From the NCBI GenBank assembly GCA_947561585.1, contig CANNZV010001060.1, forward strand, positions 62,001 through 126,000: a DNA stretch of 64,000 nucleotides. The letters run 5' to 3'. Below are positions 846-33,800 of the stretch, piece by piece (within the stretch, counting starts at the first letter, position 1; the number at the start of each line of letters is the position of its first letter). Both the position numbers and the translations under genes were made by a program. The stretch comes from Caprella mutica (Eukaryota > Arthropoda > Malacostraca > Amphipoda > Caprellidae). Below the pieces are notes generated by a model, which was given only the letters and a program-made list of their open reading frames with translations, was not told the DNA's origin and ran no database searches.

Positions 846-1310
846 ATTCTTGTAGCAGAAATTTGTTGTAATGAATAAGACTATTGAATTATGTTGAAGA
901 GGAATAAATATTTTATAGCATTGTATAAATTTTATTTACATTAATACTTCAAGACTAGAAATATGGAACTGGAACAATGGATATCTTAAAAGAATAAACT
1001 AAAAGTTTTATAAGTTACGTAATTTGGTCTATTGGCTTATAATATGATTTCTAAATATATTGACTGTTTAGTAGAACGGGTTAAATAAAATGTAACCATG
1101 AAAACGATATGTTCCATAAAACTTGCCAGTACATTTTTAATTTCATATTATTAGTAAAAAATGTACGAAATAGCGTAACTGGAATAACATTTTATATCAA
1201 AATGATTTATTTGAAGAGTTATTTATTTAATGAACTCATTTTGTATCATGTAAAAAGAGAGACAATTGAGGTTATGTCAATATGGCAGTGAATTACTTTT
1301 AAATAGTGCT

Positions 1311-1465
1311 AGGGATAGTTACGAATTATCGGTCAATAGTACATCTTCAGACATAGCGATAAGAAAAACAATACAAAAATTGTTAATATTACACATTGCT
1401 ATCTAATACATCTGCAAACCCGGGTTTGCAGATGTAGTACTGACCGATAATTCGGAACTTACCCT
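1311..1465. mobile_element. Family A palindromic element
   Basis: Arms AGTTACGAATTATCGGTCAA and CTGACCGATAATTCGGAACT are inverted. The centre is a different palindrome, TGCAAACCCGGGTTTGCA. Confidence 0.7.
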
Positions 1466-1557
1466 ACAGTTAAAGAAGTATTAGTACTATCAGAAAAATT
1501 AATTTACTCTCATTAGCTATAGTAACGGAGTCAATCATTAAAAATGAAGTAGGTGAT

Positions 1558-1644
1558 GTAAGTTCCGAAATACCTGATGATTCCACATTTTCGATAGCTA
1601 TAATCGAAAATGTGGAACCGTACAATAATTCAGGACTTTGCCTA
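1558..1644. mobile_element. Short family A derivative
   Basis: An 87-bp minimal version with arms CCACATTTTCGATAGCTATA and its complement and no central core, probably an internal deletion of the family. Confidence 0.55.
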
Positions 1645-1667
1645 ATGTTCAACTAACCATTAAACAC

Positions 1668-1933
1668 AAAGGGCCGTACACACGTGGGTTTTTAAAAGTT
1701 TTCCACCAGACTTTTTGTTAAGCTCCTCCTACTTTTTCCACGAGAATAATAAGAAAAAAACGATAGTATTTATTTTAGTTGGCATCCATGATACCTGCAG
1801 GTTTCTTGGATACCAACTAAAATAAATATTAATTATATAGTTTTTCCTTATATTCTCGTGGAAAAAGTAGGAGGAGCTTAGCAAAAAGTCTGGCGGAACG
1901 ACTTAAAAAAACCCTACGTGTGTACGGCCCTTT
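1668..1933. mobile_element. Family B palindromic element (AAAGGGCCGTACACAC termini)
   Basis: Arms begin AAAGGGCCGTACACACGTGG and end CTACGTGTGTACGGCCCTTT. Subterminal inverted blocks AGCTCCTCCTACTTTTTCCA face each other around the core palindrome with TACCTGCAGGT. No coding capacity. Confidence 0.8.
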
Positions 1934-2172
1934 AGAATGTTTCGTGACTGAACAAAGTAGTTTAAAATATAGTTGGTCAATTGTCGGTAATATGAACCTT
2001 GTCGGTGATTTAGAGAATACTCTAATAAAAAAAGAAACATTAATCCACCTTATCCTCACAAAAAATTTCTAAATTATACAAATAATGTATTAACTAAAAC
2101 CTATAATAATAAATACTTAAAAATATCTACTTAACTTATAAAATATATTTCATTTGGCATTTTAGGAGAAGT

Positions 2173-2297
2173 GGGGTAAGTTATGAATTATCGGACAGTT
2201 CCACATTATCAGGCATTTAAGAAAAAAATAAAATCTAAATAATTACCTATATTATTTATTTCATGACCGAAACTGACCGATAATTCGTAACTTACTC
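2173..2297. mobile_element. Family A palindromic element
   Basis: Arms GGGTAAGTTATGAATTATCG and CCGATAATTCGTAACTTACT are inverted; the core is lost. Confidence 0.65.
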
Positions 2298-2576
2298 AAA
2301 GCAAGATTCACACGGTCAGCAGAGTAAAAAGTTATAACAATTTTCGTATTAGTGAAGACAAAATGATAAATATTTTTACCATATTAAAATTCTATTCAAC
2401 AGTTCAATTTGGCAAAACAGACATTGTAGAGTTTTAACCCTGACGCAATTATGACGTGTTTGGTGTAAGAAACTTTCGAAATGTAGTCTTTGAGATTCTT
2501 TTTTTGAGACTAATGATTGCATAACGTACCATCAGTTGCATAAAGTACCATCAGTACTTTATGCGAAGATAGGTAT

Positions 2577-2827
2577 AAAGGGCCGTACACACATAGGGTT
2601 TTAAAAATCTTTCCACCAGACTTTTTGCTAAGCTCCTCCTACTTTTTCCACGAGAATATAAGAAAAAATGATACAATTGTTATTCATTTCAGTTGGTATC
2701 CATGGATACCAACTGAAATAAATATTAATATAATATTTTTTCTTATATTCTCGTGGAAAAAGTAGGAGGAGCTTAGCAAAAAATCTGGTGGAAAGACTTA
2801 AAAAACTCTGCGTGTGTACGACCCTTA
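2577..2827. mobile_element. Family B palindromic element
   Basis: Same termini as the element at 1668 (AAAGGGCCGTACACACATAG; GCGTGTGTACGACCCTTA), with a shorter core GGTATCCATGGATACC lacking the CTGCAG centre. Confidence 0.8.
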
Positions 2828-3339
2828 AGTACCGTAATCGTCAGTTATATCTCAGTAAACCTAGAAAACTTTGGATGCTTCTAATATTTAGTAAATGTGA
2901 CACAGACCATTCCTCCACCAAACGAGTCATACAGGGTAATAAATTTAGCTTAAACTGACCATGTGAAAGTTGCCTTCTAAGAAGAAGAAATCACAGTAAA
3001 AGTAAGAAAAAGACTACTCATCAATTTCAGTAACATCAAAGCTGAACAGTATTGTGTAACGTATAACACCTTGTTCAGAAATTGGGGAAAAATCCATACC
3101 GTTAGTATGTCAACTGTATGGATTGGGGATAAACTTTAGCGATATTCCAAAAATACCCTGAAAAATGAATGACAGATGAGGACAACATTGATACCTACCT
3201 CAATTATTTAAAAACGATAACTATACAAGAAAGGACATCTTTAACAATTAGCCTATTTCGTTAATTTGTACCATACACATTCATCACAAATATTAAAGCA
3301 GTAGAAAATTGAGCAAGATTTTATTGCTAAAGAGAGAAT

Positions 3340-3562
3340 TAAGTTACCCTAACTTCCCGACAGAAAGTTACCCTAACTTCCAACAGAAAGTTACCCTAAC
3401 TTCCAACAGAAAGTTACCCTAACTTCCAACAGAAAGTTACCCTAACTTCCAACAGAAAGTTACCCTAACTTCCAACAGGAAGTTACCCTAACTTTTTACA
3501 GACAGTTAACCCTAAATTTTTAAATAAAGTTACCCTAACTTTTTAAACAAAGTTACCCTAAC
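3340..3562. repeat. 23-bp tandem repeat
   Basis: About nine copies of a 23-bp unit containing AGTTACCCTAACTTCCAACA. Later copies diverge (TTTTTACAGACAG, TTTAAACAAAG). Each unit holds one CCCTAA, but it is not telomeric because the spacing and flanks are those of a minisatellite. Confidence 0.85.
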
Positions 3563-3720
3563 ATTTCAATAATGGATACCAGTGAAGAACTATAAAAGAA
3601 GACATCTTGACATTGGATAAATATCTATTATTTAGAGGAAAAAAACCTATGCAATAATTTGATCACTAATGAGTTTTAGCATGCAATTAGTATTTACAGT
3701 ATACAGGAAAAATACTAACT

Positions 3721-3892
3721 AGGGTAAGTTACGAATTATCGAACAGTATCATATCTTCGGTCATATAAGAAAAAACAATATAATAATTGTTATTATTACA
3801 CAGTGCATAGCTATGTCATAATAATAATTTTTATATATTTTTTTTTATATGACCGAAGATGTAGTACTGACCGATAATTCGTAACTTACCCT
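3721..3892. mobile_element. Family A palindromic element
   Basis: Near-perfect arms AGGGTAAGTTACGAATTATC and GATAATTCGTAACTTACCCT with TCTTCGGTCATATAAGAAAA inside. Confidence 0.75.
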
Positions 3893-4071
3893 AGTCTCCA
3901 TAATAAAAAAAAAACTATTGGTAACCTGTAGGCATGAACCTAAAACTTGTATTTCTTTAATTTGATCTAAAATGTTCATATTTTAAACGTTCTGACAGGA
4001 ACTTTTCTGTCTGGAATCAATATCAGTTAAAGTCTTTTAGATCAAATGTAGCCAATGTTTTTGACAACAAA

Positions 4072-4271
4072 AGGGTAAATTACGAATTATTGGTCAGTTT
4101 CACATCTTCGGTCATATATAAAAAACAATATTATAATAGTTATTTTATTTTAATTGGCATCCATGATACCTGCAGGTATCATGGATACCAATTAAAATAA
4201 AATAACTATTATAATATAGTTCTTTCTTATATGACCGAAGATGTGAAACTGACCAATAATTCGTAATTTAC
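4072..4271. mobile_element. Family A palindromic element with intact core
   Basis: Arms AGGGTAAATTACGAATTATT and CCAATAATTCGTAATTTA. The centre carries the full core palindrome ATCCATGATACCTGCAGGTA, shared with family B. Confidence 0.75.
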
Positions 4272-4291
4272 AGTAACTAGTGTTAGTTTCA

Positions 4292-4442
4292 AGGGAAACT
4301 TCAGAGTTATTGGCTGGTTTCCCATTATCGATCAAATAGCTATGAAAAAATATACAATAATTAAAATATAAAGTTGAAACGTTATTGTACTTTTATTTTA
4401 TGATCGAAATTGAGGAACCATTCGATAACTCGGAACTTCCCT
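4292..4442. mobile_element. Family A palindromic element, diverged
   Basis: Arms AGGGAAACTTCAGAGTTATT and CGATAACTCGGAACTTCCCT. It directly abuts the preceding element. Confidence 0.65.
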
Positions 4443-4537
4443 AGAGATGTGGACACCAGTGTCCGTAAAACTGCCAGGCAGAAAATTACCAAATCGGAAA
4501 ACTTGTTTCATTTGAGTATTTTTTTAGTAGCTACAGG

Positions 4538-4574
4538 TTTATTTTATTTCCTAACTTATTTAATAAAATTTATT
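4538..4574 (-). terminator. DCAF15 polyadenylation signal candidates
   Basis: Two AATAAA hexamers lie on the minus strand at about 4574-4569 and 4543-4538, roughly 280-315 nt beyond the DCAF15 stop. They sit before the first palindromic element of the flank. The region is A+T-rich, so chance occurrence is possible. Confidence 0.4.
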
Positions 4575-4853
4575 TGATAAAATAAACACGTAATGTAGTT
4601 TGTTGCGTCCGCCAGTTTGTTGTAGCTAATGCACAAGTCCTGATTGTTTAATGAACCGGCATGTTACGTCAGATATAAAATTGTCTTAGAACGTGTTTAG
4701 AACAAGATAATGTTTTAAAAAATGACTGGCATTTTCCGTCTCGCAGTTTTCCAATTTGTCAGTTTTTCCTCCGTCAATTTTCCGCATACCGTTACCAACC
4801 CTTCCTCAGGAGTTAGGAACTAGTCAGGGTAAGGTGATTCTGAAAGAGAATCC

Positions 4854-4936
4854 TCAAGGTGAAGAAGCTTCTGGTAGGGGACCAAAGACAACAGCCATCA
4901 GGTGTTGCCCCTCCATGATACACCGTAAAGACGTGC
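4854..4936 (-). CDS. DCAF15: DCAF15 coding exon 11 (stop codon)
   Basis: Acceptor CTTTTCACAG|GCACG. Reading across the junction gives RGTSLRCIMEGQHLMAVVFG, then PLPEASSP and TGA. Human ends [20 protein letters not shown], so this copy has about eight extra C-terminal residues. A plus-strand frame at 4756-4953 is antisense noise. Confidence 0.88.
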
Positions 4937-7900
4937 CTGTGAAAAGAATGTAAACATAAGAGAGAGAAAAAAGTACAACATATTGAATATATTTTGCAAA
5001 CTTCTTCGTAACCAAAGGCTCTATATTTAACTAAACCTACACCTCCTTTAGTGTACTTACAACTACTTTAGTGTACTTACACCTCCTTTAGTGTACTTAC
5101 ACCTCCTTTAGTGTACTTACACCTCCTTTAGTGTACTTACACCTCCTTTAGTGTACTTACACCTCCTTTAGTGTACTTACACCTCCTTTAGTGTACTTAC
5201 ACCTCCTTTAGTGTACTTACACCTCCTTTAGTGTACTTACAACTACTTTAGTGTACCTACACCTCCTTTAGTGTACCTACACCTCCTTTAGTGTACTTAC
5301 ACCTCCTTTAGTGTACTTACACCTCCTTTAGTGTACTTACACCTCCTTTAGTGTACTTACACCTCCTTTAGTGTACTTACACCTCCTTTAGTGTACTTAC
5401 ACCTCCTTTAGTGTACTTACACCTCCTTTAGTGTACTTACAACTACTTTAGTGTACCTACACCTCCTTTAGTGTACCTACACCTCCTTTAGTGTACTTAC
5501 AACTACTTTAGTGTACCTACACCTCCTTTAGTGTACCTACACCTCCTTTAGTGTACTTACAACTACTTTAGTGTACCTACACCTACTTTAGTGTACCTAC
5601 ACCTCCTGTAGTGTACCTACACCTACTTTAGTGTACCTACACCTACTTTAGTGTACCTACACCTCCTTTAGTGTACCTACACCTACTTTAGTGTACCTAC
5701 ACCTCCTTTAGTGTACCTACACCTCCTTTAGTGTACCTACACCTCCTGTAGTGTACCTACACCTCCTTTAGTGTACCTACACCTACTTTAGTGTACCTAC
5801 ACCTCCTTTAGTGTACCTACACCTCCTTTAGTGTACCTACACCTCCTTTAGTGTACCTACACCTACTTTAGTGTACCTACACCTCCTTTAGTGTACCTAC
5901 ACCTCCTTTAGTGTACCTACACCTCCTTTAGTGTACCTACACCTACTTTAGTGTACCTACACCTCCTTTAGTGTACCTACACCTCCTTTAGTGTACCTAC
6001 ACCTCCTTTAGTGTACCTACACCTACTTTAGTGTACCTACACCTCCTTTAGTGTACCTACACCTCCTTTAGTGTACCTACACCTCCTTTAGTGTACCTAC
6101 ACCTACTTTAGTGTACCTACACCTCCTTTAGTGTACCTACACCTCCTTTAGTGTACCTACACCTACTTTAGTGTACCTACACCTCCTTTAGTGTACCTAC
6201 AACTACTTTAGTGTACCTACACCTCCTTTAGTGTACCTACACCTACTTTAGTGTACCAACACCTCCTTTAGTGTACCTACACCTACTTTAGTGTACCTAC
6301 ACCTACTTGAGTGTACCTACACCTACTTTAGTGTACCTACACCTCCTTTAGTGTACCTACACCTCCTTTAGTGTACCTACACCTCCTTTAGTGTACCTAC
6401 AACTCCTTTAGTGTACCTACACCTCCTTTAGTGTACCTATACCTCCTTTAGTGTACCTACACCTCCTTTAGTGTATCTATACCTCCATTAGTGTACCTAC
6501 ACCTCCTTTAGTGTACCTACACCTACTTTAGTGTACCTACACCTCCTTTAGTGTACCTATACCTACTTTAGTGTACCTATACCTACTTTAGTGTACCTAC
6601 ACCTACTTTAGTGTACCAACACCTCCTTTAGTGTACCTACACCTACTTTAGTGTACCTACACCTACTTTAGTGTACCTACACCTACTTTAGTGTACCTAC
6701 ACCTACTTTAGTGTACCTACACCTACTTTAGTGCACCAACACCTACTTTAGTGCACCTACATCTACTTTAGTGTACCTACACCTACTTTAGTGTACCTAC
6801 ACCTACTTTAGTGTACCTACACCTCCTTTAGTGTACCTACACCTCCTTTAGTGTACCTACACCTACTTTAGTGTACCTACACCTCCTTTAGTGTACCTAC
6901 ACCTCCTTTAGTGTACATACACCTACTTTAGTGTACCTACACCTCCTTTAGTGTACCTACACCTCCTTTAGTGTACTTACACCTACTTTAGTGTTCCTAC
7001 ACCTCCTTTAGTGTACCAACACCTCCTTTATTGTACCTACACCTCCTTTAGTGTACCTACACTTCTTTTAGTGTACTTAAGTCGTTCTTACGCCATTTTT
7101 GTATTTACGTTGGTAGTGTACCTAAGTCGTGTGCAACCTACAGAAGGTTAACTTGTTACCTCTGCATATGGCGTCATTGGTGAGGACCTTAACGCTGCCG
7201 TAGTAAGAGGAAGGTCTCGACACCAGTGTCCGTAACTGCTGTGCCAGTCTAGTACCGGTCTTCCACCAGTTTCTCTCCTCGCAGTCGGTAGAGCAAACTT
7301 CATGACGAGTTAATCTGAAAAAACAAAACACTGTAGCTAATATGAACAGTACACACAATTTTATCAAGAACCTCTTCATTGAGTGTTTAATAAACGAGAA
7401 GATGTTAGGATATCACTACGAGAAAAAGATCACAATTTCTATACGAGAAATAATGGAGTGAGCCTCGCATTTAAAGCGCTAATAAATTTTACTTAGATAA
7501 AATATCCTTTTTTACTATGAAACGTAAGTTTATACTACAAGTCTAAGGACTTAACTGTTGTCTAAAGGGCCGTACACACATGCGGTTTTTTAAAGTCTTT
7601 CCACCAGACTTTCTGCTAAGCTCCTCCTACTTTTCCCACGAGAATATAAGAAAAAACGATATTATTATTATTTATTTCAGTTGGTATCCATGATACCTGC
7701 AGGTATCATGGATACCAACTACAATAATTAATAATTAAATCTTTTTTTCTTATATTCTCGTGGGAAAAGTAGGAGGAGCTCGCAAAAAGTCTGGCGGAAA
7801 GACTTAAAAACCCTACGTGTGTACGGCTCTTTATAGTTAGCTACTCACAAGAAAGGGTCTTCCTCTTTCAAAGGCTGTCTGTCTATCACATAGTACTCTT

Positions 7901-10900
7901 TAGTGTGAATACTAAACACGAAGGTAGCAGTTGTTTTGTAGAGCTTCCTCGTCCTACCTGTAAGATAGAATTAACTTAGCAGAAACAATGGAAAGGATGG
8001 TCTTCGCTGAAGGATATTCTAACGAGTTAACTTAGGGGTATGTCAGACACTCACAGTACTCTGAAAGTGGAGGTTAGCACAGGACATGAACCAGTCTGAC
8101 CGTTAGCAATGCCTGATAGACTTAGGGTAAGTTCTTAATTATCGGTCAGATCCACATTTTCGGACACGTAAGAAAAAACGATATAATAATAATTGATTAA
8201 TATTTTTTATATCTTTCCTTCTTACATGTCCGAAAATGTGGAACTGACCGATAATTAAGAACTTACTCAATGTTAACATTCACATTTTTGAGTAGCTACT
8301 GTATACGGCCATTAGCTAATTGCCCTCCTAAAATTGCAGAAGGTTATGTTCTGGTCAGCACTAAATATTTATTATTTATAATCTTGTTATTCGCTTAACT
8401 CAAAAAATAGTCAACCAAATTGCCTGATGTTTGGTGGGACAATTGGTCATCATCCAGCAACCAGTTAATTAGAATTAAGGAAGAGATAGGGTCAAAGGTC
8501 AAGGTCATTTACAGCTCAATAAGAACAAAAAAAGTAGAGACGGTGAAGGCATGCACGCTATTAAATGACAAATATTCTAGCCATTTAAAATTTCATACTT
8601 CAAACAAATTAAGGTAAAAACTTTTGTGTCTAGCTAACCACATTGCTATCTTACCCATACTAACCACATTGCTATCTTACCCATACTAACCACATTGCTA
8701 TCTTACCTATACTAACCACATTGCTATCTTACCCATACTAACCACATTGCTATCTTACCCATACTAACCACATTGCTATCTTACCCATACTAGCCACATT
8801 GCTATCTTACCCATACTAACCACATTGCTATCTTACCTATACTAGCCACATTGCTATCTTACCCATACTAACCACATTGCTATCTTACCCATACTAACCA
8901 CATTGCTATCTTACCCATACGAACCACATTGCTATCTTACCCATACTAACCACATTGCTATCTTACCTATACTAGCCACATTGCTATCTTACCCATACTA
9001 GCCACATTGCTATCTTACCCATACTAACCACATTGCTATCTTACCCATACTAACCACATTGCTATCTTACCTATACTAACCACATTGCTATCTTACCCAT
9101 ACTAACCACATTGCTATCTTACCCATACTAGCCACATTGCTATCTTACCCATACTAACCACATTGCTATCTTACCTATACTAACCACATTGCTATCTTAC
9201 CCATACTAACCACATTGCTATCTTACCCATACTAACCACATTGCTATCTTACCCATACTAACCACATTGCTATCTTACCCATACTAACCACATTGCTATC
9301 TTACCCATACTAGCCACATTGCTATCTTACCCATACTAGCCACATTGCTATCTTACCCATACTAACCACATTGCTATCTTACCCATACTAACCACATTGC
9401 TATCTTACCCATACTAGCCACATTGCTATCTTACCCATACTAACCACATTGCTATCTTACCCATACTAACCACATTGCTATCTTACCCATACTAACCACA
9501 TTGCTATCTTACCCATACTAACCACATTGCTATCTTACCCATACTAACCACATTGCTATCTTACCCATACTAACCACATTGCTATCTTACCCATACTAAC
9601 CACATTGCTATCTTACCCATACTAACCACATTGCTATCTTACCCATACTAACCACATTGCTATCTTACCCATACTAACCACATTGCTATCTTACCCATAC
9701 TAACCACATTGCTATCTTACCCATACTAACCACATTGCTATCTTACCCATACTAGCCACATTGCTATCTTACCTATACTAACCACATTGCTATCTTACCC
9801 ATACTAACCACATTGCTATCTTACCCATACTAACCACATTGCTATCTTACCCATACTAACCACATTGCTATCTTACCCATACTAGCCACATTGCTATCTT
9901 ACCCATACTAACCACATTGCTATCTTACCCATACTAACCACATTGCTATCTTACCCATACTAACCACATTGCTATCTTACCCATACTAGCCACATTGCTA
10001 TCTTACCCATACTAACCACATTGCTATCTTACCTATACTAACCACATTGCTATCTTACCCATACTAGCCACATTGCTATCTTACCCATACTAACCACATT
10101 GCTATCTTACCCATACTAACCACATTGCTATCTTACCCATACTAACCACATTGCTATCTTACCCATACTAACCACATTGCTATCTTACCCATACTAGCCA
10201 CATTGCTATCTTACCCATACTAGCCACATTGCTATCTTACCCATACTAACCACATTGCTATCTTACCCATACTAGCCACATTGCTATCTTACCCATACTA
10301 ACCACATTGCTATCTTACCCATACTAACCACATTGCTATCTTACCCATACTAACCACATTGCTATCTTACCCATACTAGCCACATTGCTATCTTACCCAT
10401 ACTAGCCACATTGCTATCTTACCCATACTAACCACATTGCTATCTTACCCATACTAACCACATTGCTATCTTACCCATACTAACCACATTGCTATCTTAC
10501 CCATACTAACCACATTGCTATCTTACCCATACTAACCACATTGCTATCTTACCTATACTAGCCACATTGCTATCTTACCCATACTAGCCACATTGCTATC
10601 TTACCCATACTAACCACATTGCTATCTTACCTATACTAGCCACATTGCTATCTTACCCATACTAGCCACATTGCTATCTTACCCATACTAACCACATTGC
10701 TATCTTACCTATACTAGCCACATTGCTATCTTACCCATACTAACCACATTGCTATCTTACCCATACTAACCACATTGCTATCTTACCCATACTAACCACA
10801 TTGCTATCTTACCCATACTAACCACATTGCTATCTTACCTATACTAGCCACATTGCTATCTTACCCATACTAGCCACATTGCTATCTTACCCATACTAAC

Positions 10901-13900
10901 CACATTGCTATCTTACCTATACTAGCCACATTGCTATCTTACCCATACTAGCCACATTGCTATCTTACCCATACTAGCCACATTGCTATCTTACCCATAC
11001 TAACCACATTGCTATCTTACCTATACTAGCCACATTGCTATCTTACCCATACTAACCACATTGCTATCTTACCTATACTAACCACATTGCTATCTTACCT
11101 ATACTAACCACATTGCTATCTTACCTATACTAACCACATTGCTATCTTACCTATACTAACCACATTGCTATCTTACCCATACTAACCACATTGCTATCTT
11201 ACCTATACTAACCACATTGCTATCTTACCTATACTAACCACATTGCTATCTTACCCATACTAACCACATTGCTATCTTACCTATACTAACCACATTGCTA
11301 TCTTACCTATACTAACCACATTGCTATCTTACCTATACTAACCACATTGCTATCTTACCTATACTAACCACATTGCTATCTTACCCATACTAACCACATT
11401 GCTATCTTACCCATACTAACCACATTGCTATCTTACCTATACTAACCACATTGCTATCTTACCCATACTAACCACATTGCTATCTTACCCATACTAACCA
11501 CATTGCTATCTTACCTATACTAGCCACATTGCTATCTTACCCATACTAACCACATTGCTATCTTACCTATACTAACCACATTGCTATCTTACCCATACTA
11601 ACCACATTGCTATCTTACCTATACTAACCACATTGCTATCTTACCTATACTAACCACATTGCTATCTTACCTATACTAACCACATTGCTATCTTACCCAT
11701 ACTAACCACATTGCTATCTTACCTATACTAACCACATTGCTATCTTACCTATACTAACCACATTGCTATCTTACCTATACTAACCACATTGCTATCTTAC
11801 CTATACTAACCACATTGCTATCTTACCCATACTAACCACATTGCTATCTTACCCATACTAACCACATTGCTATCTTACCTATACTAACCACATTGCTATC
11901 TTACCCATACTAACCACATTGCTATCTTACCCATACTAACCACATTGCTATCTTACCTATACTAACCACATTGCTATCTTACCCATACTAACCACATTGC
12001 TATCTTACCCATACTAACCACATTGCTATCTTACCTATACTAACCACATTGCTATCTTACCCATACTAACCACATTGCTATCTTACCCATACTAGCCACA
12101 TTGCTATCTTACCCATACTAACCACATTGCTATCTTACCCATACTAACCACATTGCTATCTTACCCACACTAACCACATTGCTATCTTACCCATACTAAC
12201 CACATTGCTATCTTACCTATACTAACCACATTGCTATCTTACCCATACTAACCACATTGCTATCTTACCCATACTAACCACATTGCTATCTTACCCATAC
12301 TAACCACATTGCTATCTTACCCATACTAACCACATTGCTATCTTACCCATACTAACCACATTGCTATCTTACCCATACTAGCCACATTGCTATCTTACCC
12401 ATACTAACCACATTGCTATCTTACCCATACTAACCACATTGCTATCTTACCCATACTAGAACAGTCCTCAGCATTGCTGGTGGTCTGATGGCTGGTAGAT
12501 CTGGTGGTTCGAGTCCTGACAGAACTGCTGCCAGCCTGTCCGTTAATGTCAGCCTGTACCATAAAAGAGGCAACGGCTACAATGTTACCAGCATCTGGAC
12601 AGACCTGAAATGTAGGTACAATGATTATTGTTATGAATTATTGGACACTTTCACATTTTGATCATACGAGTAGAGTTTGCAGTGGAACTCCTCTATAGTG
12701 AATGATTTAGGATGCAGCTACCCTGAATAGTGAACAAATTTTCTTTGGTCTGTGAGGGATTTCCCTCAGTTTTAGAAAACTGAAGACTATTAAATGGCGG
12801 ACTAAAGAAAATATGTTCACAATACAGGCTACATCCTAACTCATCACTATACAAGAGTTCACTAAAGAGGAGTTCTTCTTTATATAATTAACCTTTTAAC
12901 TATTTATTTTAATTGGTAGCTATCTTGAATACGAATTTTAAAAACCTGGAATAGCTACCTAAATATTATGTTCTTTTTTCTTATATGATCGCAAAAGTGA
13001 AACAAACCTAGATATAGTTTCATATATTATAAGTCAAAGAATTACTTTATGGCACTTTTCTCACATCAACTATCTCCACATTGTAGTCACAGCAGCACGA
13101 GTACACCAAGTCAGCTTCCATGCATAGAGAATGGGCAGTGGAGTGGCAGAACTGCTCCACATCGAGACTCAGTTGACGCACTCTCAAACCCGGCATTGAC
13201 AGTTTCTCCGCCTTTGTACTGGATATCATGTGCATCTGCGTGTAACCTGCACCGTGCACTTCTAGTGGTAGGGCACTGTGGTAACCTGTACTGGAACTTA
13301 ACTCGTCATCTGCGAAAAAGAAATATACAAAAAATTGTAATGGAAAAACCATACACCTTTCCATAGATGGATATTGAAATGAGATATCTAGCTAGCTAGC
13401 TACCTATATTATATTTTGAAAACAATATTGTAAAAATAAAATATAGCTACCTATTAGACAATAGGTACATAGTTATTGAAGATGGATTATAATATTGATG
13501 GAATATTTTCAAACTAGTTACTGATTTTTCAAATTTGACCAATACCATCACCGACCAAATTAAAATGTAACCAAAATTTATAGCTAGCTACTAGTGAATA
13601 AAAGGAAATAACTGTGCTTCAGAAAATAGCTACCTTCTTTCCCTAATGTTTGACTAATAAGTACCTTCTATATCAGTGATAATAGACACCAGTTCATCAT
13701 CGACTTCAATGTAGTGCCTATTGATCTGTACCACACAGGTCATATTCTGCGCAACGTCTGCCGATGTTCTTGTGTTGGGTAAGGCGAGCATATCAAGAGA
13801 GCCTAGCAAGTAGAAACCACTTTTCTCGTACCTATCCAGATCGTAATTGAGCCTATCGTAATTATCATAATTGAGTCTGTCATCGTAATTGAGATCTCTA

Positions 13901-16900
13901 GGAGAGAGAAGGGGACTGGAAATGTTCTGATTGATAGGTCGCAGAACATCTCCTGCTGATGAACTGCCCGGGCTTAAAAGTCGTTCATAGACACTTCTAC
14001 GTAAACCATCACTGGCCGGGTGCGGGGAATTGGGGTCAGGGGCGTAATTTCGGGGGGACACGGCAGGACTGGGTACAATTAATACGGATTGGCACCGCTG
14101 AGTGCGGTAGCTGCGATAATTAGCTGGAAGGTTCTCAGAATTCTCATCGGAAAATTCATATTTTTTATCGGCCAGACGTCGTTTTCGGTAGACACTAAGT
14201 TTTTCATGTCTCGAACCTGATATCTCGTCTATAAATTCATATTCGCTTTCAGCAGATGTGTTGGTGGGAGAATGCTGATCTTCAAGAATATCAGGTAATG
14301 GTCTATTATAAGGTCTGTGGTTACGGTTATAAAGTATCCTGAGTTCTGCTGGCAAACTTTCAATAGGGGTGGATCGGGTGACTCTTCTATTGCTAGGAAC
14401 ATTTGTACTTTGCTCTAATTCATCACTGCTATTGAGTTGATAACCCAATTCACTTCTTTGGAAGCCTGAAGGACCTGCTCTTTGAGAAGGTGATAATTGG
14501 TACTTCCTCCGTATTTTTCTATTTTTAGGTGACAGCATATTTCTAGATGTTTCAAAACTGCCGCTCTGAGAGCTTCCACTCTGTCTCAAGATGTCAAATT
14601 TAACAGATGCGGATAAAAAAGCTGCAGAAGAGTCACTCAAACCAGAACTGTCATTGGCACATATCTCAGCTTCACTGTCGGTATCTATCATATTACTATT
14701 CAAACTTTCCACATCATTACGGTTTGGCACCGTGGTTCTACTCGTTGGGACACTGCTGATAAATGTTTCCCATTCTCTATCTTTGTCCTCCACCGTCAAT
14801 CTCCGTCTCCGATCAGTTTCAGACACTTCATTTCCTCTCTCATACTCCGTATCGCTGCTGCTGCTGCTCTCACCGTTGTCCGGCGGCAGATCATTGTCGA
14901 TGCTATTGGAAGGGGTCTGCGCTCTCAAGTTATCACTGATGTTTCTGTTGCGGAGGGAGGCTCGGGTTACAGGCCCGTTGTTAAAATCATTGGAAGGGGC
15001 GGGTCTAGGAAGCCGCACTTCAATTTCTCTATCTTCTTCCATTTCCTCAGGTTCACTTTCTCTATTTGCGGCCATTGCCATACGGTTCTGATAGAGAGCC
15101 GCTAATCCGGATGTTTCAGTCATACCGGTGTTGTTTTCATGGTTCTCAAGAGACACGTTGATCACATGAATGAAGTTGCCGGTGTTGAGCACCACCCAAT
15201 TTCTGTATTTCAGCTGAACTGTGGGCAAGAAGGGCGGGTACGGAGGCACCATTTCATAACTGGTGTGAACCGTGTAACCGTGCTTGAGGCAGCTAAAGCG
15301 GATACAGCTGTTCCATCTTTCAGCAACCTCTGAAAATGGACAAAAAATTACATGGCTAGAGATCAACAATTAGGGTGAGTTATGGATGACGGTCTGTTTC
15401 ACATCTTCAGTCATATAAGAAAAAAAACTATAGCTATAATAATTACTATTTAATGGTCATTTTAATTGGTATACATGATATCTGCAGGTAACATAGAGAC
15501 CAATTAAAATAAAGATTATATAATAATTATCCTATTGTTTTTTCTTCTATAAATGAAGATGTGAAACCGACCACTAATTATTATCTTACCCTTCAATGAA
15601 TATTATGTAGCATTTAAGATACAATTATTTTCTTTGTGCTGAAATTACCAATAGAAAACAAAAGATAATAAGCAAAGCAAGGTAGAATTTGAATTAACTA
15701 CTTCATAAATTTCTTTTAAACTGATCACTGAATATCAAGAAAACCATTCAAATAGCTAGAAAACTATTCAAATAGCTAGCACAATGAAATTATGTTTTTC
15801 TCACCTTCTTCTTCATAAGAAGTTGCTACTTTGAGACAAGCCTTACAACCATCTAAAGATGGCACAGCTGTGATTGTGAGGTAACACCTCCTGCTGTTAG
15901 CACTGCCTTCTACATCCTCCATGATGCTAAAAATAAAACATGTTGAATTGGGTGAAAAGATGAAGATATTTTTCCACCAAATTCATCACACAATGATGAG
16001 GGTGAGAGGATATACTTAAAATTTGTGAATGAAGGGTCTATTGTTTAAGAGATCCTTCTTAACTTGATTAGGTATTCACATAAATTAAATCTAAAATTAT
16101 TCTTCACACTAAAGACCTATTTATGAAGAGTTAGCTAGTACAGTAGAGCCGATATGACGAAATCAAAAGTTAAATACATTATAATATAGCTATCTAATAA
16201 TATTTGAATAGCTAGCCATGTAGCTAACATGTAGATGTTACAAATCCAAGGTAGCTACACCAATGAACTAAGTAGCTAGCTAAAGAACAATCTGCACTAT
16301 TCTATTAATCTGCCAAGAATTGATAGCTACCTTGTTGCGTATACTAGTATCTTAGTGAGGTCGTTAGGCCATTGGCAAATGGTGATGGAGAGGTTCTCGT
16401 GATAGCCTTGAATGTCTTGCTCGCCAAAGAGCAGAACCTCGGCAACTTTCCTGAGAGGCGCATAAGGGACCATCAGCCACCAGTGAAGACGATACCTGAT
16501 AAAAGAAAAGAGATCTTAATAAAAAACTTATTCAATATTGGAATGATGATTATATTTCAATTAACTACAAGATAGCTAAATCAAGCATTATAAATAATAA
16601 CAAACAGAAAGCAGGCATTAGCTATAAAATGTGGGGGCGTCAGATTGCTCGAGAAAGGTGACAAAATCTTTTAACCCTGAATTAATTTGAGTTAAAAAGA
16701 AATTCTTGTGATATATATCTACTAAGCAAATAAAACATTAAACAATAAAATAATCACAATTGTGCTTAGCTAATGTAACATGCACATGTTTAGCCAGTCG
16801 TTTAAGAGAAAAATCTAAAAAAAAATAGTAAAATACATCATTTGAGACATAGCTAACTAGATTGCATGCACTCGGTAGAGCGCATTCCTTTGCCGCCGCT

Positions 16901-19900
16901 TTGACTCGTTCTCTCCCAAAATCTAATTAACTGGTGACTGGATAACGACCAATCGTCCCACCAAGTTTCATGCAATATGGTTCAATACTTTGAGTTATTG
17001 AGTTACAAATGGCCTTGATCTTCGACCCAATCGCTCCCAAAATCTAACAAAATGATTCCTGTATATTGGCCAATCTCAACTTTTTGAGTTATAAATGACC
17101 ATGACCTTGGACTGGGTCGCTCCCAAAATTCTACCAGCAGGTCACTGGACATTGACCAATCGTTTCATCAAATTTTAAATAATTTGGTTGAACACTTTCA
17201 GTTAGCTACTTAAAATTTGAAATAAATAAATGCAGGGTAAAATATAACCTTCCACAAATTTGTGAGGGTAAAAGCTGACTCAACATTGGAATAATGGATA
17301 ACTATATTTTTAGTAACTAAAGGGCTTTCTATATGTTATTATTTATAACATTTCTCTTTCGAGGGCCGTACACACGTAGGGTTTTTTAAGTCTTTCAACC
17401 AGACTTTTTTGCTAAGCTCCTCCTACTTTTTCCATGAGAATATAAGAAAAAATGATAAAATTATTATTTATTTCACTTGGTATCCATGATACCTGCAGGT
17501 ACCAACTACAATAAATAATATCAATTTTTCTTATATTCTTATGGAAAAAGTAGGAGGAGCTTAGCAACAAGACTGGCGGAGACTTACAAAACCCTACGTG
17601 TATACGGCCCTTGAAAGAGAAATGTTATAAATAATAACATATAGAAGCAGGCATTATATGAGTGGAAATGAGAATCTGTCTGATAACACAGAACTTGCCT
17701 TAGATAGTTAGGTAGGTACAAGGTTTGTTTTCTCAATAATTCAAATTCCTATTTAACACTGGAACACAAAAAAGGTTACAATATTAATTACCTGTTGGTG
17801 ACAAACACAGGCAAGGCTGCTCCATCCGAATCAAAAGAATGTGTGTAAGAGAGAAGGAACTGTCCACATTTAGTGAAGCCGAGGAAAATGTGTCTGCAAT
17901 TATAGATCAGTTGAATGTGAAATAGTTACATATATCTATAGAATAAAAATGAATAATGCAATTGAAGCTGTTGCTTGTAATAATACAAATACTTAAGAAA
18001 TTGACACATAAAAAGGTAAACATGAATTTTACTACTAAATTTCATTCAAACTATAGATGCACCGATACTCTCAGTATCGGATAAAGTATCTTATAGTATC
18101 AGTATTTTTATGAGTATCTGGTATCGAATTCCAAAATTAGTTAAAATATTACCAATAGCAAATATTACCGATACCAATCCATGATACCTGCTCGATATTT
18201 TAATTGGCATCCATGATACCAGTTTGACATTTTAATTGGTATTTTATGATACATGCAGGTATCATAAATACCAATTAAACTAAAAGCAAAATAGCTAATA
18301 ATTGTAATATATTTTCTTCCGTGTTGGAGAATGTTGAACTGACCAATAATTAAGAGCTTACCATAGTAATATAAACTAGAATGCGTTTCTATCTAGCAGT
18401 ATAAAATAGAATGTATACATTATTTATTATAATCACTCTCACCCTGCAATCAAAGCCGAGTGTGGGGCTAGTAGAGGGAGGGGGAAAGCAAGACGAGAAG
18501 GGAGCTGATGGAAGAGTGGCAACTGCGGAGAATGACTGTGCTCACTGATACGGCCATTTAACTGAAAATAAATGATAGTACATTAATAAGCAGAGTAGCT
18601 ATAAGTCAATTCAGCTATTTATGAAATGACAAAAGTTGTGGTTTAGCTAATAACTAAGTTTAGTAACAAGTCTATAGTTATCCAGTCTGAAAAGTATGAC
18701 AGGATGCGAGGATCAATCCTAGATCCAAATCCTATTTTGTTTCCATGTTATTAGCTGCACCCAAATCCCAATTTCTGTAAAAAAATCCTAGGTCTGAGCA
18801 GACCTTATTATCAGACAAGATGGTTATAATGATTAAGCTTATCAACTTCAATCAAGTTATCTATCAGTCTGCAAAAACTGGTAAAGTGTCAAGTATAATA
18901 GTTTCCACTCGTCTCTCTCCAAAAATAACCAAACTCTCTCTTATTCTGTTTGTAGCTAAATTAATGTTAATGCAGGAATTAATTCAAAATTGTTCGGAAA
19001 GAATATCCCAAATATCTCCCATATTCTGCAGACTGGACACATTCATCAGTCATGAAGCATAAGCTAGGTAATGAAGTATATCCAAATTCACCATTTTAAT
19101 GGCAAGTTTGAGACAGTTATTTTAAGCCCTTCAATTGCATATGGCGAGAAATATCTAATTTTCTCCTATGCTACAATGTTATTTTGAAGAGAATTTATGA
19201 TAATTTGATCATTTTGGAGATAAATTTGGTGATTTTTAGAGAGAGCTGGAGAGTTTATGAGCCATACCATTTTACTTGGAGCATAAGGAGGTTTTCAAGT
19301 GCAAAATCTTCACTAGGAGGTCAAATTTTTTCTTAAAGGTGTCTTAAACGTGGTGACCTGGCTCCCTTTTCTCACTAAACTGGCGACTTTCCTGCCACAC
19401 GGCACACTTGAAAACATGGTTAGTTCACTTAGTTGCAACAATTAGGTAGCGTCAACAGAGGTAATTTGGCGCAAGGCTATAACCAGGGGGTTAACTGGGA
19501 CTCTTTTCTGATGCCAGTCTGTATTTGGTGCACAAAATCCAACTGACTTTTTCAAAAAGCTGAAAAAAATCCACCATAAATTTCCAGTAATTTGGCTGAT
19601 CCACCAACATTTTTCCCATTTATCCACCGAAAATTGATGGTAACATAGGAATAAATAGCTAAAAATCCACTGACTTTGCCAGAATATTATTTTCAAAGAG
19701 GCCACGTTTTAGAAGCTGGAAAATTGTAAGCCAATTTTTGAGCCAAAATTTCACAAAAAATCTGAGCCAAGCCAATTGGGCTCATTTTTTGAAGATTTCA
19801 AGTCAAAATTAACATGGGAACATAGGAATTAATTCAAAATTTAAAGCCAATTAGACATATCTGAGATTTGACCATTTCTAATCTAAGCCAATTAATTGGC

Positions 19901-27800: not shown

Positions 27801-30800
27801 CTTTTTTCTCTCTCCCCCTCCCTTTTTCTCCCTCTCCCTCCCTTTTTTTCTCTCCCCAGTGGGTTATAGTGACTCTAGAGCTCTGATATTTCACTCAAAT
27901 ATCTGGAAGGGTACAAAGTAGCTATTTACGAAATATAGAAAATGATAAAATTATGAGATTTTCACAAGTATGGTGCCCTTAATTACTTTAGCTAAAACAG
28001 AGGAACCAGCAGTGTGTGTGTAGTTAAATTACATTCTATTGATTAGTTAATTAATTTCAGTTTTAATAACTATTGACTGGTATGACATTAGAATTGATAG
28101 TTCCTCTTTTGGTATTAATTGTGTTCTATCTTTGCAGGTAAGATTGTAAAAGAGGTAACCTGAGATATTCAGGTAAGTAACTGGTTAGAATGTTTATTCA
28201 GTTAGTTTCTCTAATTGATTTAGATACTGTATCTATGATACTCTGTGTATTATTTCCTTATTTATTACATGCAAAGTTCAAACTGCATCTATGATACTCT
28301 TTTCTGTTCATTATTTCCTTATTTATTACATGCAAAGTTCAAACTGCATCTATGATACTCTTTTCTGTTCATTATTTCCTTATTTATTATAATGCAAAGT
28401 TCAAACTGTATCTATGATACTCTTTTCTGTTCATTATTTCCTTATTTATTACATGCAAAGTTCAAACTGCATCTATGATACTCTTTTCTGTTCATTATTT
28501 CCTTATTTATTATAATGCAAAGTTCAAACTGCATCTACGATACTCTTTTCTGTTCATTATTTCCTTATTTATTATAATGCAAAGTTCAAACTGTATCTAT
28601 GATACTCTTTTCTGTTCATTATTTCCTTATTTATTATAATGCAAAGTTCAAACTGTATCTATGATACTCTTTTCTGTTCATTATTTCCTCATTTATTACA
28701 TGCAAAGTTCAAACTGTATCTATGATACTCTTTCCAGCATATTATTTTTAGCTATTTATTTTTACTCCATATCCACATCTTCTTATGAATCTAGCAAATT
28801 TCAAACTGGATTTTTTGAGTTTTACCAGATTTGTTCATGGCAATTTATTTCTTAACTCATTGTTATTTCACATTATTTTTATGCATAAGTATAATTTTCG
28901 ACAGCATTTTACCATTCCATTATGAGCAACAGATAGCACAGTACACAGAATTCTATCAGTAATGATTTGTGTAAGTTAGTGCAGATAGCTCACTAATACC
29001 TTCATTAGGCATTCATTAGGCCCTAATTGTCTCGGTAATTAGGCCATTAGCATTTAAATTAATTCACAGCAATGTGCGGCTATTAATTACTAACATTTTA
29101 ATACAGACTAATTGTCTAACACTATTTGACTTGTGATAACAGTGAGTTATAGTGAGTGTGAGTGAGTTATAGTGAGTGTGAGTGAGTTATAGTGAGAGTG
29201 AGTGAGTTATAGTGAGAGTGAGTGAGTTGAAGTGAGAGTGAGTGAGTTAAAGTGAGAGTGAGTGAGTTAAAGTGAGAGTGACAGAGTTAAAGTGAGAGTG
29301 ACAGAGTTATAGTGAGAGTGACAGAGTTATAGTGAGAGTGACAGAGTTATAGTGAGAGTGACAGAGTTATAGTGAGAGTGACAGAGTTATAGTGAGAGTG
29401 ACAGAGTTATAGTGAGAGTGACAGGGTTATAGTGAGAGTGACAGAGTTATAGTGAGAGTGACAGAGTTATAGTGAGAGTGACAGAGTTATAGTGAGAGTG
29501 ACAGAGTTATAGTGAGAGTGACAGAGTTATAGTGAGAGTGACAGAGTTATAGTGAGAGTGACAGAGTTATAGTGAGAGTGACAGAGTTATAGTGAGAGTG
29601 ACAGAGTTATAGTGAGAGTGACAGAGTTATAGTGAGAGTGACAGAGTTATAGTGAGAGTGACAGAGTTATGTAGTGAGTAAAAGTGACCTGTAGTGTCAC
29701 AAGGGACATTACGAGAAGGGCCTCTATGAACAGTCAGCTGTGTGCTTGACGATGGTTAACAACGGAGCATAGACTCACTCACTCACTCCTCACTTGGAGC
29801 TTTTGCACTCCATACCATATTCCAAAATCTGACAAAGGATGAACCTCCACCAGGGATAGGAAGACAGTTTGGGTGCAATCGTTGGCTCAGAGATTTATCC
29901 TTGACTTGGTCAGTCACAACCGCCAATCACTGGCCCCCTCACAGGGACTGCCTGAAGGCAGTCCCTGAGACGGTGACAGAACGCAGGGTGTGACCGAATC
30001 TCTTTCGCCACGGAAAGGCGCAAGTTTTTCTCTTAGCTAGTTGGTTTGAGTTAAAATGAGAGTGATGTCAGAGACTCGAGAAGCGCTTGACAGCTCAGTT
30101 GGTCAGCTCACTGAGTATCATGTCAAGTCGCCTTAAAATGTGTCAACAGTCAGGCTGCTGACAACATTTTCTGGTGCAGTCTGTTCCACACATTACAGAT
30201 CTTTACCAGCATGAAGTTCTCCAGCTGAGCAGTGGTGAAACTAGGAGGAACCACCTTCCACCCGTGGTTATGGGTGGGGTTCACACACAGATAAAAGTAG
30301 TCTTTGGTATAAACTCGACTTATCCCTTGAAAGATCTTAAAAATCTCAATGAGTTGACCCCTCAAATGTTGTTTCTCAAGCGTGAAGAGGACCAGGTTTT
30401 CTAAACGACGTGCGTGTTCCTTGTATCGGATTTCAGGTACAAGTTTAGTCGCCCTCGCTTGCACCCGTTCCAACCGCTGGACATCCGCTCGCAACGTCGG
30501 TAACTAGAACTGGACTGCAAACTCCATAAGAGTTCGGTCTCTCTGTATCGGGTATCTGAATTGCCTCTTGATGTACCCTAGGATCTTGTTTGCTCTCTTC
30601 TCAGCTTCCAGGCACCTGAGATCCCTGGTGATCATCACTCAGAGATCCTTCTGTACATCAGTGGGTCCTATTTGGGGCTCCAAGTAGCGTGTAGTCAGCT
30701 TCAGCGTTTCTACAACCAGCATGAAGTACTCTACAGTTGTCCACGTTGAAGGGAATCTGCCAATTTTCAGACCATTCTCCTATCTTGAAAAAATCACGTT

Positions 30801-33800
30801 GGAGTTGTCCGATTTCCTCTGGATCTTTGTGTCGTCAGCAAACTTTGTCAGATGAGTCCTACATCAAGGTCACTTTTGTAAATAAAAATGAGAACCGAAA
30901 ACTGAATCCTGGGGAACCTTAGACATGACCTGATCCTTTGTAGGACTCGACCACCCACTCCAATAGCTACTATTTTCGCCATTAGCCTTTTGTGAAGTTC
31001 CTTGTCAAAGGCCTTCTTGAAATCAAGGTGTACGATGTCATAGCTTCGAATTTGTCATGCTCCTGTAGAACGTAGTAGAAGAACGGTTGTAAGTTTGCCA
31101 GGCATTACTTCCTGCGAAGAAAGCCATAAAGATTCTTTCCTATGAGCTGGTGTTGTTCCAGGTGATCAACAATCCTATCCTTGATGATAGATTCAAGCAG
31201 CTTTCCAGGTACCGATGTCAAACTAATCGGCCTGTAGTTACTGCTGTTAGTGGTCTCACCTGTCTTGAAGATTGGAGTTACATCCGCGATCCTCATGTCG
31301 TCGGCGACCTCGCTCGACTCCAAAGAGACATTGAAGATCTGTTGCAGATGTGCCGCCAAACCATCCTTCACGTTCCTCATCACTGTTGATAAGAATCCAT
31401 CAGGACCAGCTGCCTTGTTAGGGTCCAGCTTGCTATGTTTGTCCACTACCTCTTCAACAGTTCAAACAATCTCAGTCAGTGGCATTCGTCCCTCGTAGTG
31501 GACTACGGGGTCAGGGGTGCCAAGCGCATCCTCCCTGGTGAAGACACTGACGAAATAACAGTTGAGTTCGACCACGTTGTCGGCATCCGAAATTGCCTAC
31601 ACACCTTGGGTTGTCCTGATTGGTCCGATGGAGCTTCTGGAGGGCTTTCTGCTATTAACATAAGCGAAGAACTCCTTAGGGTTGCCCTTACAGGCCAATG
31701 CAACCCTGTGTTCCTCCACTACTCTAGCTTGCCGCTCCATTCTTTTGACCAATCTCTGTTGGTCTGTGAGAAGTCTCTCAGTTTCTGGTGAAGAGTGAGT
31801 CTTGGCTGAGAAGTAGAGTCGTTTCCTTCTCTTTATCTCTCTGCCAAGCTCGTTGTGAAACCAATTAGGACGAACCTTCATGCAACCACCTACCCTTTTC
31901 CTAGGTATGCGTCGGTCCTAGATCGAGATGTAGTTTGCCTTAAAGCCCCGCCACATCTGATCAGGTGAAGTTGGAAGTTGAGGCCGTAATGCCTGCAGAT
32001 CACGAGTGAAACTGTCGTAATCAGCTCTTCTCAGATTCAGCATATTTCTATGAGAGATCTTCTCTTGTTCCACTTTGACTCCCACTATAAAAGAAACGGC
32101 ATTATGGTCACTGGTACCCAGACATTCACCAACCGAGACCTGAGAAACCAGATCTTCGTCGGTAGTGAATATGAGGTCCAGTGCATTTTCGCCTCTAGTG
32201 GGAGTTCTTACCATCTGGGAGAGGAAGTTGTCGTTCGAAAAACCAATCAACCTACCTCCCTCCCCATCCGAGACTCTTGTGCTCCAATCCACTCTGCAGT
32301 TGAAATCTCCCAACACAATGGCCGTTTCATCCTGCAGAAGTCAGTGAGAGCAGCGTAGAGATCTCGGTCGTGGTCTCTCGTCTAGTGGGGTGGTCTGTAG
32401 AGCAAGTAAAGGTTGAGTGTGACTTCCGCTCGGACCTCTATCCCTAGTAACTCATACGGTGAGTCGATGGATATGAGGGCCGCGTCAATGTGACAGCGAA
32501 CATAGATCATCACTCCTCCACCTGCTCTGTTGCTACGATCTCTGTGGAATGTCTTATACCCGTACAGGTGATACTCTCCCTCAAAATCTCGTCTATCAAC
32601 TGACACAATACACCTAAACTGCTGTAGCTTTTTTCTGGTAGACCGAGCATTGAAGAGTATAATTCGAAGGTCCTTCACTGGCCTCTGAGTCCTAGCCCGT
32701 TTCCCTGGTTTTCTTCATAGGCGCAGTCTTCATATCCTAAGCCGTCGTCGAAGTCGTCTACGGTAGAGTAAGGGGGTGTTCTGGGATGGGTGAGAGTGAG
32801 TTACAGTGGTATCACTGATACCACTGCTCTCTCTTTCTGTGTATCACTGATACCACAGCTCTCTCTCAGTATCACTGATACCACAGCTCCCTCAGTATCT
32901 CTTCAGCTCTCGCCCAGTGCGGACGTGTCCCTCTCTCTCCTCCCTCCCCATCATTCCAGTTTCACTCTAGCTTGCCCTCACTCTAGCGTGATCCTAAAGG
33001 GGCTCACTCCATTTCATTCTAATATTAGCCACTGCCCCGCAATAGGCCCCCACCGCTACCCTATCTGGTCTGGAGGGAGCACCACCTCCACCCTTGGGGC
33101 TACACTCACCACCATCACATTACGTCACTCTATTAAATAACTTTAATCTATTTGGTTCATTCACACTCGTTATCGTAGGCAGGATACCAAGTGATTAGTC
33201 ACTTATTAGATGGTGGGAATTGTAGCATGGATACAGATGCGTGTGTTGTAGATACAGAAGTGTTGTATCTATGATGCAGAAGAGTTGTATCTATGATGCA
33301 GAAGTGTTGTATCTATGATGCAGAAGTGTTGTATCTATGATGCAGAAGTGTTGTCTATGATGCAGAAGTGTTGTGTCTATGATGCAGAAGTGTTGTGTCT
33401 ATGATGCAGAAGTGTTGTGTCTATGATGCAGAAGTGTTGTGTCTATGATGCAGAAGTGTTGTGTCTATGATGCAGAAGTGTTGTGTCTATGATGCAGAAG
33501 TGTTGTGTCTATGATGCAGAAGTGTTGTATCTATGATGCAGAAGTGTTGTATCTATGATGCAGAAGTGTTGTATCTATGATGCAGAAGTGTTGTATCTAT
33601 GATGCAGAAGTATTTCATGAGTGTGTTTGATGTTTTCACACTATCTCTCCAATGTTACTTAGAGAGGGTACAGTATCTAACTGTTAGAGAGGGATCTCGT
33701 CAAACTGTAGAGAGGGTACAGTATCTCGTCAAACTGTTAGAGAGGGTACAGTATCTAACTGTTAGAGAGGGTACAGTATCTCGTCAAACTGTTAGAGAGG

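Follow-up and report, generated by a model that had tools for sequence, protein, structure and literature searches.

The stretch analysed here, called the window, is 64,000 nucleotides (nt) of DNA from the amphipod Caprella mutica (contig CANNZV010001060.1, positions 62,001 to 126,000). Its minus strand carries a gene that its homologues identify as DCAF15 (DDB1- and CUL4-associated factor 15), in which the predicted 5' splice site, or donor, of exon 8 is also the first unit of a long tandem array. An earlier inspection of the letters alone, the sequence-only reading, had described about 147 near-consensus donors here in transcript sense, spaced 26 nt apart with GTAAGA kept throughout, the outermost being the real exon-8 donor. 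The features of the locus are listed below in the direction of transcription; in donor motifs, a slash between bases outside brackets marks the exon–intron boundary.

18442..18564, minus strand: DCAF15 exon 2 (tblastn)
17806..17892, minus strand: DCAF15 exon 3 (tblastn)
16336..16497, minus strand: DCAF15 exon 4 (tblastn with the Hyalella protein)
15805..15922, minus strand: DCAF15 exon 5, 5' limit approximate (gene model and tblastn)
13665..15329, minus strand: DCAF15 exon 6, large (gene model and tblastn)
13065..13309, minus strand: DCAF15 exon 7 (gene model and tblastn)
12451..12604, minus strand: DCAF15 exon 8, 154 nt, its last nine bases (12451-12459) opening unit 1 of the array (gene model and homologues)
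12442..12450, minus strand: authentic exon-8 donor ATGG/GTAAGATAG (intron positions +1 to +9), best-scoring and in the right phase
8634..12459, minus strand: 26-bp donor array, 147 units and a 4-nt partial unit (tandem-repeat and spacing analysis)
7958..12450, minus strand: intron 8, 4493 nt, about 3817 nt of it array
8368..8373, minus strand: the only AATAAA of intron 8, about 260 nt beyond the array
7849..7957, minus strand: DCAF15 exon 9, which joined to the unit-1 donor reads G-RTRKLYKTTATF (gene model and homologues)
7160..7314, minus strand: DCAF15 exon 10 (gene model and tblastn)
5035..7076, minus strand: second DCAF15 array, in the last intron, 102 x 20 bp
4854..4936, minus strand: DCAF15 exon 11, ending in TGA (gene model and tblastn)

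The gene is DCAF15 on the evidence of its predicted protein. With the C-terminal 283 residues as query, 34 homologues were retrieved. The best is an uncharacterised protein from another amphipod, Hyalella azteca (65% identity over 98% of the query), and several crustaceans and insects supply others annotated as DCAF15. The N-terminal part of the query is matched by four distinct DCAF15 sequences from the PDB, with E values of 2.1e-9 to 2.2e-7, and the Pfam family PF14939 is a precomputed annotation on DCAF15 homologues. Seven modelled exons, from 15922 down to 4854, form an open frame of 842 codons with a TGA end and GT-AG introns. All seven were matched by tblastn with the Hyalella protein, which added three further exons upstream to give ten in total; in this homologue-guided model, the array-bearing exon is number 8, provided that an unseen N-terminal exon is included in the count. 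In the 903-Mb assembly, DCAF15 exons are matched five times, each time at the array locus. The gene is thus single-copy, leaving neither another copy nor an alternative allele for comparison. DCAF15 of Hyalella and of decapods was compared as protein sequence only.

The array is a minisatellite in the usual sense of head-to-tail units of about 10-100 bp in many copies, with 147.1 copies of 26 bp and a Tandem Repeats Finder score of 7160, which leaves no room for a chance origin. In transcript sense, its consensus is (T/C)TAGTAT(G/A)G/GTAAGATAGCAATGTGG, each unit consisting of nine exon bases followed by seventeen intron bases. GTAAGA is found in 147 of 147 units, and all 146 spacings are exactly 26 bp, with no insertions or deletions (indels); the +1 G of donor 1 lies at 12450 and the final donor at 8654. 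The donor sites are of three types, ATGG/GTAAGA (109 units), ATAG/GTAAGA (37) and GTGG/GTAAGA (1), and the whole units of six, with copy numbers of 85, 28, 23, 9, 1 and 1. Only four of the 26 positions vary (-9, -7, -4 and -2), all of them among the nine bases derived from the exon; the seventeen derived from the intron are invariant throughout. There is a modest higher-order periodicity at lags of 3, 8 and 11 (0.53, 0.51 and 0.49 versus 0.40). An exact 25-bp core of the unit has 108 matches in the assembly and 108 in the DCAF15 array alone, so this exact core occurs nowhere else; elsewhere in the window, no related copy with fewer than 8 mismatches of 26 was found with the two unit rotations tried. 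Six units are predicted to fold as RNA at -15.7 kcal/mol, less stably than arrays of shuffled units (mean -27.4, standard deviation 7.6), and thus give no sign of a designed stem-loop. An Rfam scan of the window brought no family to its cut-off.

At the exon edge, the gene model and the protein homologues agree that unit 1 of the array is the real exon-8 donor of DCAF15. The match to the unit ends nine bases into the exon, and of the 26 bases preceding the array, 5 agree with the unit. Eleven GT dinucleotides were listed in or at the end of exon 8, among which donor 1 (12450) has the top score and the required phase. The other five same-phase GTs in exon 8 score no higher than 4.95; the top one among them sits 16 nt into the exon, within the conserved VCPDAGN stretch. 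Splicing from donor 1 to the exon 9 acceptor would read ...SSM-G-RTRKLYKTTATF, where many decapods have ...SSL-TRKQYKTTATF, and in the alignment of the junction, the decapod ...SSL-TRKQYK stands opposite ...SSM-GRTRKLYK of C. mutica. The distance from VQAD to TRKL is 34 residues in C. mutica, 33 in Hyalella and fewer in decapods. Because the homologue alignment fits the junction, the exon-8 end is probably ancestral, with the array arising from it, the exact residues being a short stretch in which Hyalella differs.

Only donor 1 keeps the reading frame. Donor 2 adds 26 nt to the exon and shifts the frame, and every one of donors 2-8, those computed, leads to a premature stop with exon junctions left downstream; from donor 3 onward, the first stop is identical and lies inside the array. 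The structural description given by the sequence-only reading, from the number, spacing and invariant core of the donors to the identity of the gene, the exon number, the coincidence of the outermost unit with the real donor and the frame-shifting second donor, is therefore borne out.

Each unit was scored with a standard donor matrix of unverified frequencies. All 147 score as donors, in keeping with the near-consensus character ascribed to them: the real donor and 109 other units reach 7.08, and the 37 ATAG units reach 8.69, the five other modelled DCAF15 donors ranging from 4.36 to 10.74. Of 26-bp stretches drawn at random from the non-array parts of the window, about 7.5% hold a donor of such score on one strand or the other, so the motif alone is unremarkable; what is remarkable is its identity with the authentic donor. 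Recursive splicing through zero-length exons, for which the AG/GT of the 37 ATAG units might have served, was considered and rejected because the units lack a polypyrimidine tract upstream, with pyrimidines at only 7 of 16 positions, compared with 10-13 of 16 for six real DCAF15 acceptors.

We put the probability at roughly three in four that the extra 146 donors are passengers of a minisatellite that caught the exon-8/intron-8 boundary. This reading draws on the exact anatomy of the array, the open 842-codon model and the homologues that fit the junction; on the premature stops from donors 2-8, a genome rich in minisatellites and a lack of enrichment of GTAAGT triplets (see below); and on the size of intron 8, which without its array would be about 680 nt, near the 355, 460, 475 and 534 nt of the introns between modelled exons that lack a large array.

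The origin of the array may be traced in its ends. The trinucleotide TAG is found at the beginning of unit 1, and the last full unit is succeeded immediately by TTAGCTAG. The first duplication of the junction would have come from slippage or unequal exchange involving short TAG repeats of this kind, set 26 bases apart, and later unequal exchange would have expanded the copies into the intron only, unit 1 staying fixed because its exon bases code for protein. From its high homogeneity, the array is probably young. Exon definition and the advantage of an exon-adjacent, first-transcribed donor are familiar features of splicing, and in donor constructs, the upstream duplicate is favoured. Through these effects, acting on a 154-nt exon, the decoys would mostly be ignored and unit 1 would be spliced to exon 9, the sole frame-keeping choice in the gene model; a working gene would require that the decoys be largely passed over. 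A small leak of stop-containing products longer by +26, +52 ... nt would be expected, to be sent to mRNA decay.

The genome offers ample material for such an accident. Counting arrays of at least 5 copies with a period of 12-70 bp, we found 52 arrays covering 12.2% of bases in 26 10-kb stretches outside the window (256 kb without N), and 22 arrays over 16,887 bp within it, which is 26% of the window versus 12% in the 26 stretches sampled elsewhere. At such a density, some arrays would be expected to lie across exon edges. With both strands of the assembly counted, tandem triplets of GTAAGT occupy at least 61,995 positions versus at least 81,880 for the backwards pattern, the counts being lower bounds on positions rather than numbers of independent arrays. 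As the triplets are fewer than this control, repeated donor hexamers appear to be common and not specially favoured.

Some observations weigh against the passenger interpretation. All four of the variable unit positions fall in the exon-derived nine (P 0.008 by counting, in a test picked post hoc with the pattern already known, two of the four positions being single changes), and this confinement might be a sign of constraint on the unit's donor half. Arrays also carry donors rather often. Among 70 arrays, from the window and 20 stretches, 18, 13, 9 and 6 have donors at scores of 6, 7, 8 and 9. The non-array control gave means of 6.7, 4.1, 2.6 and 1.4, the observed count being reached in at most 1 of 300 draws (at score 7, 13 versus 4.1, in 0 of 300); shuffled units gave 9.4, 5.9, 3.5 and 1.8 (P 0.003 or less); and reversed units gave 12, 8, 1 and 1, the real units being higher at every score. 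The corresponding counts for 51 collapsed arrays, from the 26 stretches outside the window, are 12, 8, 6 and 3, against 4.7, 3.0, 1.7 and 0.9 in the non-array control (P 0.000, 0.010, 0.007 and 0.083) and 6.5, 4.0, 2.3 and 1.3 with shuffled units (P 0.017, 0.057, 0.027 and 0.153). Here, reversed units gave 13, 8, 1 and 1, and the real units exceed them only at the higher scores. Within the window, 4 of 22 arrays carry a donor scoring at least 6.9, versus 1.6 expected (P 0.08).

A single 10-kb stretch, L011, supplies five of the 13 score-7 arrays and five of the nine score-8 arrays of the 70-array sample. Given the mixed controls, the behaviour of reversed units, the weight of L011 and the GTAAGT triplets, donor enrichment in arrays was rejected as a genome-wide rule. 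We conclude that arrays show no reliable donor-specific enrichment, though there may be an excess of the strongest sites. What distinguishes the DCAF15 array in the C. mutica genome is that the donor of its unit is the gene's own donor. In L011 itself, the five strong-donor arrays lie within 1246-9999, four of them on one strand (AAG/GTGAGT, GAG/GTGAGT and GAG/GTAGGT), and the open reading frames (ORFs) of the stretch resemble retrotransposon and repeat frames.

An accident of a repeat-rich genome is likelier than a function of the array as a switch or platform, and the array looks more like a natural test of splice-site choice than like a new device. The functional readings fare as follows. 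The decoys might act as a poison-donor switch, yielding frameshifted, stop-containing forms of exon 8 in 26-nt steps that are regulated to tune DCAF15; the sequence-only reading had proposed such a switch acting through nonsense-mediated decay, for which no test gave positive support. We regard it as unlikely. All 146 decoys score equal to or above the real donor, the seven computed decoys (donors 2-8) would all give premature stops with downstream exon junctions, and the donor half does not vary between units. There are also human parallels: repeat-unit donors are used in IFI6 (PMC4526556), and alternative splicing arises from tandem repeats at exon–intron boundaries (PMC2812944). Against the switch stand the destruction of the frame by the 26-nt step and the arrangement of the units nearest the exon. 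The first nine, unit 1 included, are all of the weaker form, the first stronger unit being number 10, which keeps strong decoys at a distance. Random placement of the 37 strong units yields nine weak first units about 7% of the time, a figure that counts for less given the clustering of the strong units, so that the run is only suggestive. In its fullest form, the array would be a working donor ladder, with U1 on many units, a measurable +26n series of exon-8 products cleared by mRNA decay, and inherited copy number and the placement of the stronger ATAG units setting the dose of DCAF15; this too would be a surprise.

A role as a U1 platform seems improbable. It was put forward by the sequence-only reading in two versions, in which U1 bound to the array would either block premature polyadenylation in a long intron (telescripting) or be soaked up by it. 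Array units are predicted to pair with the 5' end of U1 at -9.2 and -9.4 kcal/mol, the standard 5' end ATACTTACCTG being present in three of three U1 loci read, and one AATAAA lies downstream of the array. Set against this, one AATAAA in the approximately 680 nt of non-array intron 8 is close to what a background rate of 1.5 per kb would give, and the array itself makes up most of the intron length that would need protection. Nothing tested favours the telescripting version. Titration of U1 by one gene likewise found no positive support and would be implausible because U1 is matched at least 42 times in the assembly, on four contigs. The U1 small nuclear RNA genes on contigs G000 C1453 and C2340 repeat in steps of about 2.6 kb.

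Similarly little credit is due to an origin of the array within the intron from unrelated sequence, followed by spread over the exon edge, so that the present donor would be array-derived. The gene's other large array is indeed intronic; it begins 84 nt from the edge of exon 10, the donor of which lies outside it, and contains weaker donor-like sites in sense, such as GAG/GTGTAG and GGT/GTAAGT. For the exon-8 array, however, the nine exon bases end in Ser-Ser-Met, where many decapods have Ser-Ser-Leu, and so look ancestral, an argument limited by its reliance on three residues in a gap-rich stretch at which Hyalella differs. An assembly error, with the repeat collapsed or inflated and the copy number not real, is very improbable: long near-identical arrays are prone to such errors, but this one has no indel in 3.8 kb, its variants are unevenly spread along it, and the contig is continuous through both flanks with an intact gene.

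A human minisatellite that provides donors was published in 1995, in a paper cited by PMC2915984, PMC3618361, PMC4526556 and PMC2572611. In IFI6, the repeat unit is reportedly 12 nt and in frame, and overlap of the array with an exon end reportedly defines the case; the DCAF15 array likewise overlaps an exon end, with nine exon bases in unit 1, and its first unit is the authentic donor. Constructs with duplicated 5' splice sites were reportedly studied by Lang and Spritz in 1983 and Reed and Maniatis in 1986; there, as here, identical tandem donors compete for one acceptor, but the constructs have few copies and the DCAF15 array is natural and 147-fold. The rules of donor choice (exon proximity, transcription order, affinity and the crowding of several U1 particles) came largely from constructs with few sites.

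Published natural cases resemble the DCAF15 array in part. In IFI6, two downstream repeat units act as donors to give three mRNA species (PMC4526556). As in IFI6, the units carry a donor in transcript sense, here 147 of 147; the use of several units is the feature described for IFI6, whereas DCAF15 differs in having 147 x 26 bp in an amphipod with a frame-breaking step. Human internal tandem repeats can likewise produce alternative splicing at exon–intron boundaries, the kind of site occupied by the DCAF15 array (PMC2812944). In that report, however, novel introns are formed from long units in segmental duplications and recent human paralogues, whereas in DCAF15, an existing donor has been multiplied into its own intron as a 26-bp unit in a single-copy gene. 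The intronic minisatellite CeRep25B of C. elegans, with units of about 24 bases, lies near alternative splice decisions and is tied to them, but carries regulatory heptamers, donors going unmentioned in the text available (PMC4039745), in contrast to the donor-bearing units of DCAF15. Tandem alternative 5' splice sites are neighbouring donors of one exon, as in DCAF15, apparently with no large repeat array in the part of the source available (PMC2423196). A literature search, the coverage of which left out most subscription papers, found no crustacean case and none of this size.

The suggestion that splice-site birth by minisatellite expansion was undescribed thus fails as to kind, which IFI6 and the boundary repeats of PMC2812944 had already made known, and stands as to scale, which exceeds the known cases found. 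We judge the DCAF15 array to differ from the known kind in scale, unit length, frame consequence, host and gene, and to be unusual in size and homogeneity. It places 147 near-identical donors in one animal intron, a quarter of them outscoring the real one, in a gene that is apparently intact. If unit 1 alone is used, exon-proximal commitment would gain strong support in vivo; if other units are used, copy number would be a tuning knob, and a true donor ladder would be, to our knowledge, the largest case of many donors competing in nature. With a minisatellite load of about 12% of sampled bases, some splice boundaries should fall inside arrays.

The remaining observations concern neighbouring parts of the window. 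Two arrays, 51545-52063 and 56885-57192, have minus-strand units with strong donors (GAG/GTGAGG, 11.69, and AGG/GTAAGC, 9.58) and sit among long plus-strand ORFs. For these neighbouring plus-strand genes, none of nine frames reached the Pfam cut-off, and a query joining two ORFs found no homologue. On the plus strand at 55747-56220, a 21/42-bp array lies in a frame of 699 codons and encodes SRSPIPP-type repeats, a minisatellite in probable coding sequence. On the minus strand, 30153-32714 holds fragments resembling a non-long-terminal-repeat retrotransposon, with one frame that resembles reverse transcriptase without reaching the Pfam cut-off and a frame that by eye is endonuclease-like. Near-palindromes at 7600-7800, 4050-4280 and 3750-3900, two of them with TGATACC..GGTATCA cores, look by eye like small inverted-repeat transposons.

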